A stretch of DNA of 64,000 nt from Leptolyngbya subtilissima AS-A7 (GTDB lineage: Bacteria; Cyanobacteriota; Cyanobacteriia; Phormidesmidales; Phormidesmidaceae), in contig NZ_JAMPKY010000005.1 in the NCBI RefSeq assembly GCF_039962255.1, forward strand, positions 248,001 to 312,000. The letters run 5' to 3'. Each line of letters starts with the position of its first letter. Positions within the stretch are counted from its first letter, which is position 1. A program made the position numbers and the translations under genes. The notes under the pieces are model-generated. The model searched no databases. It was not told where the DNA came from and saw only the letters and a program-made list of their open reading frames with translations. Positions 3,959 to 13,005 of the stretch are shown piece after piece.

Positions 3959-4621
3959 ATGAGCTACCCAAGCTTCCACAGCTTTATTAAACTGCTGCGC
4001 AGTCTGCTCAAGCGCAGGCAGCCTCTGCTGTTTGAAGAATCCATTTTTTTGGCTGATCTGTGCCTCGCCTATGGCACCATCGCCGGCCTGGGCGATCGCG
4101 ACAAAAAAACCCTCTTTCTGGCTGCCCACTTCAAAAACCTGGGGGCCATCTACCTCGAAGACCATCACCTCAGACAAGAGTACCGAGACCATCGTGAGGC
4201 CATCGTCCAGATGGAGGTGCTGTTTAACGCCAGCGCCCAGCTGGCCAAAGATGCTGGCCTCCAGGAGGTCGCCGACGTTCTCGATGAGTACCACCTGCGA
4301 GCCATTCCTCACAATCATCTAGCCCGAATTTTTCAGGTGCTCAACGCCTGGGTGTCGTGCCGTCAGCGCAAGGGCTGGCGCAGCTCGATGAGTGACAAAG
4401 AGGCGCTAATAATTCTCAAGCAGCGGGCCGAGATGAAGTGGTCTGACCCCAAAGTGGTGTTCCACTTTATCGAACACCTCTGCCGCTATTCGTCGCGGCC
4501 TGAGCGCCGCCAGGCCTGCACCGTTACGGGGTTTGAGGTGCCGGTCGAGATGCCCAAGGTGCGCGACTACAGCTTCGACACTCTAGAGGACCAGTTTCAG
4601 GAAGTCGAAACGACGGGGTGA
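3959..4621 (+). CDS. Cyanobacterial helical protein with HD-domain-like fold, function unknown
   Basis: From the ATG at 3959 the protein has 220 residues; an upstream TTG at 3926 would add 11 unlikely residues. The helical pattern and the stretch from about residue 29 (SIFLADLCLAYG) through AAHFKNLGAIYLED and YHLRAIPHNHLARIFQVLNAW resemble the HD/HD-GYP metal-dependent phosphohydrolase fold, in which hydrolases have an HD dyad. The usual HDIGK-type catalytic motif is replaced (HFKNLG), so it is probably a catalytically dead or sensory derivative. It is isolated from other genes, with about 280 bp upstream and 480 bp downstream. The fold assignment is an inference. Confidence 0.6.
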   Translation: MSYPSFHSFIKLLRSLLKRRQPLLFEESIFLADLCLAYGTIAGLGDRDKKTLFLAAHFKNLGAIYLEDHHLRQEYRDHREAIVQMEVLFNASAQLAKDAGLQEVADVLDEYHLRAIPHNHLARIFQVLNAWVSCRQRKGWRSSMSDKEALIILKQRAEMKWSDPKVVFHFIEHLCRYSSRPERRQACTVTGFEVPVEMPKVRDYSFDTLEDQFQEVETTG

Positions 4622-10782: not shown

Positions 10783-11367
10783 ATGACCACCCTGGATTTG
10801 CCCCTTGAACTCAACCTTGAGGCTGTTCATTTTACCGATGAGCAGTTTTATCAACTCTGCATTCACAACCCGGAGATGGCGATCGAGCAAAATGCCCAAG
10901 GAGTGTTGATCGTTATGCCCCCTGTTGGCGGTGAGAACGGCAATCAAGAAATGGAGTTGGGGACTGACCTAGCGTTGTGGAATCGACAAAGCAAACTTGG
11001 CAAAGTCTTTAGCTCGTCCACTGTTTTTCAGCTGCCGGTCGGCAGCAAGCGATCGCCCGATGCTGCCTGGGTCGAACTATCCCGTTGGGAGGCGCTGACC
11101 CCAGAGCAGCGGCGTAGATTCCCTCCCATTGCGCCTGATTTTGTGATGGAGGTGCGATCGAGCACCGATAACCTAACAACTCTGCGCGAGAAGATGCAGG
11201 AATACATGGCTAGCGGTGTTCGTCTAGGCTGGCTAATTAACCCAAAGGATCAGCAGGTGGAAATCTATCGGCCTGGGCAGGAAGCGGAGATGCGATCGCT
11301 GCCTACTCAGCTCTTTGGAGAGTCCGTGCTGCCGGGCTTCATCCTAGATGTTTCCCCATTTGCTTAG
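10783..11367 (+). CDS. Uma2 family (DUF820) PD-(D/E)XK-like nuclease
   Basis: 194 residues. The motifs GENGNQEMELGTDLALWNRQ, SPDAAWVELSRW and PDFVMEVRSSTD, followed by KMQEYMASGVRLGWLINP, are diagnostic of the Uma2/DUF820 family, which has a restriction-endonuclease-like fold and is expanded to dozens of copies in many cyanobacteria. The acidic residues in SPDA and MEVRS are in place for metal binding; the usual catalytic Gln/Lys position is occupied by Arg in EVR, as in many members. Cellular role unknown; often considered linked to mobile elements. It is isolated, with its own promoter region upstream. Confidence 0.9.
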   Translation: MTTLDLPLELNLEAVHFTDEQFYQLCIHNPEMAIEQNAQGVLIVMPPVGGENGNQEMELGTDLALWNRQSKLGKVFSSSTVFQLPVGSKRSPDAAWVELSRWEALTPEQRRRFPPIAPDFVMEVRSSTDNLTTLREKMQEYMASGVRLGWLINPKDQQVEIYRPGQEAEMRSLPTQLFGESVLPGFILDVSPFA

Positions 11368-11399
11368 CTGCTGGAATATTCCCATAGCCAGCCGACCTT

Positions 11400-11405
11400 T
11401 ATAAC
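11400..11405 (+). promoter_or_regulatory. Candidate -10 box of the structured RNA
   Basis: TATAAC at 11400-11405 is a good -10 hexamer and would place transcription start at about 11412, exactly at the 5' side of the long-range stem of the RNA described next. No clear -35 box is visible. Confidence 0.4.
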
Positions 11406-11411
11406 ACTTGC

Positions 11412-11618
11412 TTGCGGAGCTTTGTAAGTGACAGGCGTCACAGTTCGCAAAACTCTTGAGAGCATCTTCCCCTCAAACAACCTGCCATGAAGATGCGGGT
11501 GTAAGGGATGACTCAGCCGTGCCCTTGAGGCATTCTAAGTACAGATAAGACGAGCTTCGCAAATATAACTAACTCCCTATTCTAAGCAGCCCCTGGTGCC
11601 TCGGCATCGGGGGTTATT
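11412..11618 (+). ncRNA. Candidate structured non-coding RNA (6S-like shape, identity unknown)
   Basis: This interval lies between the Uma2 gene and ahcY and has no plausible protein. Its ends pair: TTGCGGAGCT (11412-11421) with AGCTTCGCAA (11553-11562), ten pairs including one G-U. Inside are the stems GTGAC/GTCAC (11428-11432 with 11437-11441) and GCATCTTC/GAAGATGC (11462-11469 with 11489-11496). A -10 box lies 6 nt before the first arm and a strong terminator at 11590-11619 follows. A promoter, a closed long-range stem and a terminator give a transcript of about 207 nt. The general shape is like 6S RNA, but no conserved 6S sequence was recognised and the identity remains open. Confidence 0.45.
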
Positions 11619-11619
11619 T
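11590..11619 (+). terminator. Rho-independent terminator of the candidate RNA
   Basis: CCCCTGGTGCC (11590-11600) pairs with GGCATCGGGGG (11603-11613) with two G-U pairs, followed by TTATTT. It reads in the + direction and lies about 220 nt after the Uma2 stop, so it more probably ends a separate transcript that starts near 11412. Confidence 0.65.
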
Positions 11620-11625
11620 AATGGA

Positions 11626-11660
11626 AAAGCCCCGGGATGCTGCGAGCGTCCTGGGGCTTT
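11626..11660 (-). terminator. ahcY terminator
   Basis: AAAGCCCCGGGATGCT (11626-11641) pairs with 11645-11660 with a 3-nt loop and two G-U wobbles. On the ahcY strand the stem ends in a run of T (CTTTTCC). It stands back-to-back with the + strand terminator at 11590-11619. Confidence 0.75.
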
Positions 11661-11679
11661 AGTTGAGGGAGACGATGGC

Positions 11680-13005
<1,326 letters not shown>

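Follow-up and report, generated by a model that had tools for sequence, protein, structure and literature searches.

In enterobacteria, the genes for the sRNAs CyaR and Spot 42 are under cAMP-CRP control. RNAs of the CsrB/RsmY type carry repeated short unpaired motifs (ANGGA) in a terminator-ended RNA that titrates a protein. The heterocystous cyanobacterium Nostoc has NsiR1, a short (∼60 nt) multicopy sRNA whose copies, some of them diverged, have individual promoters bearing a regulator-linked motif (PMC9045159). Conserved unpaired motifs are also a feature of the small cyanobacterial sRNAs Yfr1, Yfr10 and Yfr2, the last of which is multicopy and non-syntenic (PMC6778093, PMC2662882). According to PMC2662882, RsmA/RsmE homologs could not be identified in cyanobacteria. 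Titles and abstract openings of the open-access papers searched described neither the RNA family reported below nor a case of cAMP/CRP control of an sRNA in cyanobacteria, and the mentions of SyCRP1 in passages of two of these papers concerned only the protein gene slr1667 and references.

The window is a stretch of 64,000 nt from Leptolyngbya subtilissima AS-A7. Interval 11400–11619 of this window is flanked by a convergent gene pair, a Uma2 gene (10783–11367, + strand; PF05685 match, 3.1e-44) and ahcY (11680–12954, − strand; PF05221 and PF00670 domains). This placement, proposed earlier in a sequence-only reading, was borne out by the domain matches and the convergent open reading frames (ORFs), and no protein gene was evident within the 220 bp, again as proposed. 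Conservation gives good support to another call of the same reading, namely that a non-coding RNA gene not described before, ending in a strong terminator, lies between the two genes. Judging from sequence comparison, we consider it likely that the interval is a free-standing multicopy sRNA gene with its own CRP-type promoter. The dispersed RNA genes to which it would belong are best read as a multicopy sRNA family that is lineage-restricted and so far undescribed, with a CRP-type promoter in one of its branches. The features of the window copy are collected in Table 1.

Table 1. Features of the window copy (positions in the window; distances are relative to the predicted transcription start).
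Feature	Position	Strand	Basis
CRP-type operator AGTGACAGGCGTCACA (AGTGA-N6-TCACA), centre 11434.5, about −108.5	11427–11442		Palindrome and fixed place
Conserved block AACCTGCCATGAAGATG, about −64 to −48	11479–11495		Conserved positions in 15 copies
Putative −35 ATGACT, 17 bp upstream of the −10	11508–11513	+	TGAC kept in 13/15
Conserved −10 region GGCATTCTA (hexamer CATTCT, 11531–11536)	11529–11537	+	Conservation
Predicted sRNA, ∼77 nt; putative start 7 nt past the −10, end past the terminator	11543–11619	+	R2 match, segment fold
Unpaired tract with two UAUANNNAA-like units, TATAACTAA (11564–11572) and TATTCTAAG (11578–11586), starts 14 nt apart	11564–11586	+	
Intrinsic terminator hairpin, then UUAUUUAAUGG	11588–11615	+	12 pairs, conservation

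In a DNA search of 96 genomes, 13 other loci of the same genus were matched over a long stretch, and many further hits covered just the 3′ 60 bases. Part of the conserved 3′ end was matched exactly in 12 named stretches, including Nodosilinea sp. FACHB-131, P-1105 and LEGE 07298, Phormidium tenue FACHB-1052 and Leptolyngbya sp. FACHB-60. With a covariance model of the 3′ module (R1), the window's genome gave three copies, all at E ≤ 5.2e-5 (three further matches, E 0.25 to 1.0, were left out). Of the 63 genomes searched in the taxonomic family, 43 had matches to R1 at E ≤ 0.01, with up to nine matches per genome. Across the class, R1 matched 40 of 388 genomes at E ≤ 0.001, 38 of them in the same family and two outside it. 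A second model (R2) was built from 26 paralogs and contained no ahcY-linked copy. This paralog-only model recognized the window copy (E 1.5e-7, 48.2 bits), recovered 17 of the 18 ahcY-linked copies and matched 40 of the 388 genomes of the class, 39 of them in the same family. Both class searches used stricter filters, by which weak matches were lost. The genome of the 18th ahcY-linked copy (G024) was strong in the R1 family search and absent from both class tables, and was probably not drawn.

The R1 family search gave 119 matches, of which 108 were collected (10 weak ones and G047:C52 were left out). With two more from the class search, 110 copies from 41 genomes were obtained, with 109 distinct 3′ modules among them. 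When neighbours were counted on mechanically called ORFs (70 aa or longer), a convergent ahcY was the first (12 copies) or second (6 copies) downstream ORF in 18 of the 110, and Uma2 was among the next two upstream ORFs in 11 of these 18 and absent there in seven. Among the 106 copies that are followed by an ORF, the nearest one was convergent in 67 and codirectional within 100 nt in 8. These neighbourhoods speak for a gene independent of those around it, and a leader or riboswitch of a downstream gene was rejected on the count of 8.

Bases ∼11425–11540 look like promoter DNA when the copies are compared. In the ortholog alignment (A2; the window copy and 14 more of the 18 ahcY-linked ones), variation within the −10 region was restricted to positions 5–7. 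Many copies have the motif GGCANTNTA ahead of the RNA, with the full motif score in 54 of 106. The putative −35 was not conserved beyond the ortholog group. The conserved block between operator and −35 was found by eye at a similar distance in many paralogs and is possibly a second protein-binding site. A consensus sigma-70 scan of the interval listed no promoter, neither at the conserved −10 region nor at TATAAC at 11400. The latter, previously taken for the −10 box, was kept in 5 of the 15 copies (TATAGC in two more), and that assignment was not confirmed.

The CRP-type operator was sought as the pattern [AT]GTGA-N6-TCAC[ACG] within 170 bp of the predicted start in the 90 of 106 copies with a −10 score of at least 8.5. 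It was present in 39 of the 90, and in 37 of these it lay at an index distance of 108 or 109 from the start, a site that is shifted by one base in our by-eye upstream comparison. The background over all collected loci was 92 occurrences in 1,621,880 positions, or 0.0096 per 170 bp, the family copies included. All 18 ahcY-linked copies, which are part of the 37, had the operator at the fixed distance. By eye, the 37 copies make up roughly nine locus groups with differing intervening sequence, and selection on protein–DNA geometry is almost the only ready explanation for a distance that stays fixed across groups with such different spacers.

The pattern was absent in 51 of the 90 copies. The automatic −10 finder was misplaced in some copies (e.g., the tandem copies of L080, L086, L087 and L088), and several of these remain among the 90 and among the 51 without operator. 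Two operators were off the standard distance, L122 at 98, probably owing to a misplaced −10 call, and L155 at 64. Some of the operator-less copies had a variant block at the same place (e.g., AAAGTAAAG...ATCACAATT) and others had nothing recognizable. In one paralog branch (L075, L076, L078, L113, L114, L117 and L119), AAAGTAAAG...ATCACA(A/G)TT was observed at the operator place, with one half-site kept and the other replaced. Another genus (L080, L086, L087 and L088) had two or three tandem copies ∼240–370 bp apart. Upstream of these, TTTACGG-like repeats with 11-bp spacing (by eye) resembled OmpR/PhoB-type regulator sites, and the CRP-type operator was not seen.

E. coli activators usually bind at about −41.5, −61.5, −71.5 or −92.5, and the window operator, near −108, lies far from such positions. 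The cyanobacterial CRP consensus is TGTGA-N6-TCACA, and a putative CRP site, AGTGAAAAAACTCACT, has been placed upstream of sll1371 (PMC2633013). The window operator is a palindrome of this type, one base off the consensus (first base A, not T). In most promoters known to be activated by CRP in cyanobacteria, the site is followed ∼22 bp downstream by a TAN3T box (PMC2633013). No TAN3T box was present downstream of the window operator, and bases 11443–11475 are without any TA, so CRP would act here from an unusual place. The far position and the absence of the box suggest that the site may need a second factor, may repress, or may bind another CRP/FNR protein. The window's genome gave nine HTH_Crp_2 matches, seven of them over the cut-off. 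The candidate CRP (234 aa, with cNMP-binding and Crp domains and an ARETVTR recognition helix) had Crp 4ev0 as its closest PDB entry (2.8e-26) and also matched E. coli CAP (2e-16). Of 60 family genomes, 55 had a match to it at E ≤ 1e-40, too many for its presence to be correlated with that of the operator.

The terminator is a 12-bp GC-rich hairpin, paired in 96.7% of cells over the 15 orthologous copies, and its covariation score was matched by none of 500 shuffles, which upholds the strong terminator noted before. A simple terminator scan by itself gave two sites vs. 1.2 expected; the case for the terminator rests on conservation. The whole sRNA segment folded with a mean z of −2.10 over the 15 copies, 8 of which were below −2. 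Just past the sRNA terminator, a second near-perfect inverted repeat was observed at 11626–11660 (AAAGCCCCGGGATGC...GCGTCCTGGGGCTTT). It probably serves as the ahcY terminator and may be active in both directions.

Ahead of the terminator, the 15 orthologous copies showed strong conservation of the C/U-rich unpaired tract. Paralogs differ from one another in the linker and in the bases within the units, and UAUA, AA and the 14-nt spacing are mostly kept. Units were counted in 106 of the 110 copies, the other four being without a recognizable last unit. A TAT lay exactly 14 nt before the last TAT in 74 of the 106 copies by this stricter pattern, and a looser spacing pattern gave mixed distances, with 14 nt in 39 of 109. 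Unit base 8 was A in the last unit of all 106 copies and in the first unit of 95. The window copy has two units 14 nt apart (TAT at 11564 and 11578), and its second unit reads TATT, not TATA, so the strict double motif misses it. Three copies (L131, L133 and L154) had three or four units by eye; the automatic count of at least three units was inflated by overlapping and upstream matches.

The exact double motif was matched 33 times in 26 genomes of the genus vs. 15 times for the reversed control. Twenty-six of the 33 matches were known copies, and the seven outside them looked like chance. An unusual expansion of the tract was observed in L085 (about 4385–4445), where three repeats of CTAAYACGACCGA precede the two units. 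Two of the seven matches outside known copies, in L177 and L198, lie in orthologous regions of two genomes; there, beside a gene, a double TATANNNAA motif is found at position about 1501, possibly a target or a chance match, and a weak lead.

Many paralogs have a further hairpin at the 5′ side. Alignment A3 comprised 26 paralogs selected for a GCAG/CTGC-type 5′ hairpin, and the covariation seen in it applies to these selected copies alone. In A3, the 5′ hairpin (GGCAG-ACAUA-CUGCC type) and the terminator were paired in 97.1% of cells, with 16 double-change cells vs. 6.8 ± 2.3 (0 of 500 shuffles as high). The pairs with a double change (matched by 27 of 500 shuffles) and the pair types (190 of 500) were less telling. 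This hairpin was weak or absent in the ahcY-linked group. In the window copy, the segment ahead of the first unit folded at 0.0 kcal/mol, without the 5′ hairpin of the paralogs, and the predicted window RNA is thus unpaired in its 5′ part, after which come the two units and the terminator.

The RNA matched no Rfam family. The Rfam 15 covariance search gave no match at gathering score in the window, in line with the earlier statement that no known cyanobacterial RNA signature was recognized. At E ≤ 10, five matches were obtained in 11200–11750, all outside 11400–11619 and all far under gathering: four (F6 twice, mir-3199, sR035) fell on the inverted repeat near 11623–11663, and SPRY4-IT1_1 lay inside Uma2. 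When 20 loci with family copies were searched against Rfam, only two tRNAs were found. For 6S RNA (RF00013), there was no match in the window at gathering or in 11200–11750 at E ≤ 10, and the sole match in the genome was G000:C3:386855-387038 (87.2 bits); 6S RNA was rejected. Yfr1 (RF01116) was rejected as well, its only match in the genome (G000:C3:36974-37039, 47.7 bits) being at another locus.

The interval had been described as a 220-nt 6S-like RNA closed by a stem at its start site, and we weighed the reading of a ∼200-nt structured RNA of 6S-like shape that shares the terminator, has its start near 11412 and is held together by a long-range closing stem. On the + strand, 11400–11619 folded at −73.2 kcal/mol (z −2.96 vs. 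dinucleotide shuffles), with the closing stem as part of the minimum free energy (MFE) structure; the terminator supplies much of this signal (11400–11580, without it: z −1.95, 10 of 200 shuffles equally good). Over the 15 orthologous copies, the stem was paired in 70.4% of cells (2 of 500 shuffles as high), with 11 double-change cells vs. 6.8 ± 2.2 in shuffles (20 of 500 as high) and a covariation score matched by 8 of 500. Its arms paired better with their own partners than with permuted ones (−13.1 vs. −11.9 kcal/mol; p 0.015, and p 0.034 in the diverged subset, n = 10, both values ignoring relatedness); copy by copy, p was ≤ 0.05 in 6 of 15 and > 0.2 in another 6. All this favours the longer RNA. 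However, the stem was missing from the RNAalifold consensus of the 15 copies, and when its partner was slid by +1, 13 double-change cells were counted, more than in register. The region equivalent to 11412–11585 had a mean z of −0.69 over the 15 copies; z was below −2 in two of them, the window copy and one other. The operator and the −10 at fixed distance fall within the supposed RNA, TATAAC is kept in only a third of the orthologs, and the genome's 6S gene is elsewhere. The internal stems of the earlier description showed little covariation (score matched by 154 and double-change cells by 31 of 500 shuffles), and the 'stem' predicted at 11428–11441 is made of the same bases as the operator palindrome. 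With the upstream z near chance, the stem lacking in the consensus and TATAAC poorly kept, what was seen as a long structured RNA probably arises by accident when promoter DNA is folded, with a weak arm signal left unexplained. That signal makes a longer RNA possible, although we judge the ∼200-nt reading improbable. The closing stem hence survives as part of the MFE with a weak excess of arm pairing, the check for conserved paired arms largely, not wholly, fails, and the 220-nt outline is not supported, its upstream ∼120 bp being promoter-like. The 6S shape (long stem, open central bubble) was rejected on the missing stem and the upstream mean z, with the weak arm-pairing excess staying. An antisense-strand RNA was rejected separately on the z of the − strand over 11400–11619 (−0.08, chance vs. 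dinucleotide shuffles).

Two other explanations were weighed. The operator and sRNA might serve the neighbours, the RNA being a Uma2 3′ UTR or a transcription barrier for ahcY. The 18 copies with a downstream convergent ahcY and the inverted repeat at 11626–11660 would suit such a role, but the seven of these 18 copies without Uma2 in the next two upstream ORFs and the 92 of 110 copies that lie elsewhere make it distinctly improbable. Alternatively, a short mobile or repeat element, MITE-like, might have spread through the genomes, as the several copies per genome at varied places (up to nine matches in one genome) would allow. We regard this as the most improbable of the explanations, since nearly every copy has a distinct 3′ module, many copies keep promoter parts at fixed spacing, the hairpins carry compensatory changes and 18 copies remain beside ahcY. 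A free-standing sRNA gene can itself be read in two ways. The same ∼77-nt sRNA may be a base-pairing regulator in which the CUAACUCCCUAU stretch covers the ribosome-binding sites (AGGGAG) of target mRNAs. The strong conservation of the C/U-rich unpaired tract among orthologs is consistent with this, as is the pairing of the multicopy sRNA NsiR1 with more than one mRNA (PMC9045159), but unit-internal bases and linker vary between paralogs and it is UAUA, AA and the 14-nt spacing that mostly stay. Base pairing has, in our estimate, a real chance that falls somewhat short of even. Protein binding, itself a little under even, is slightly favoured because the spacing and UAUA/AA are mostly kept and three inner bases vary; the three copies with three or four units also fit it slightly better than a single antisense seed.

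From these comparisons, the following mechanism can be proposed for the window copy, as a free-standing sRNA gene. Transcription would start near 11543 and end near 11619, yielding the ∼77-nt sRNA. CRP with cAMP, bound at about −108, would adjust its transcription together with whatever binds the conserved block. Less certainly, the RNA would work in trans through its paired units, which may bind and titrate an RNA-binding protein rather than form one contiguous antisense seed. More tentatively still, and with odds clearly against it, the family members could be sponge RNAs in which two or more UAUANNNAA units in 14-nt register dock a dimeric RNA-binding protein that has so far escaped recognition as a global regulator, with cAMP-CRP setting the dose in one branch. 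If so, a second-messenger level would be converted into release or sequestration of an RNA-binding protein.

These data suggest that (i) a plausible misreading, in which promoter DNA is folded as RNA, can be corrected at this locus; (ii) an sRNA family without an Rfam match is present, its 3′ module being found in 43 of the 63 genomes searched in one cyanobacterial family; (iii) cAMP signalling would be linked to sRNA regulation in cyanobacteria if the CRP control is real; and (iv) the rigid paired motif offers a tangible starting point in the search for an RNA-binding regulator.

When compared with the described systems, the family resembles 6S RNA in being a non-coding RNA gene of similar assumed size, and differs in that the genome has its 6S match elsewhere and no Rfam 6S match occurs here. 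It shares small size and conserved unpaired motifs with the Yfr RNAs, and multicopy, non-syntenic occurrence with Yfr2. Set apart by description, Yfr2 has a 12-nt loop on a long bulged stem that is not seen here, and the genome's own Yfr1 is at another locus. NsiR1 is likewise a short multicopy sRNA with individual promoters and partly diverged copies. In contrast to the 12 tandem NsiR1 copies by hetF, with their DIF1 motif, the members of this family are mostly dispersed, have no Rfam match, and carry a double UAUANNNAA tract and, in one branch, a CRP-type operator. CyaR and Spot 42, compared by description, are alike in CRP control of an sRNA gene, which is only putative here, and the window sRNA stands apart from them by its operator at about −108. 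The CsrB/RsmY-type RNAs likewise combine repeated short unpaired motifs with a terminator; the motif in this family is UAUANNNAA, not ANGGA, and it is usually present in only two units.
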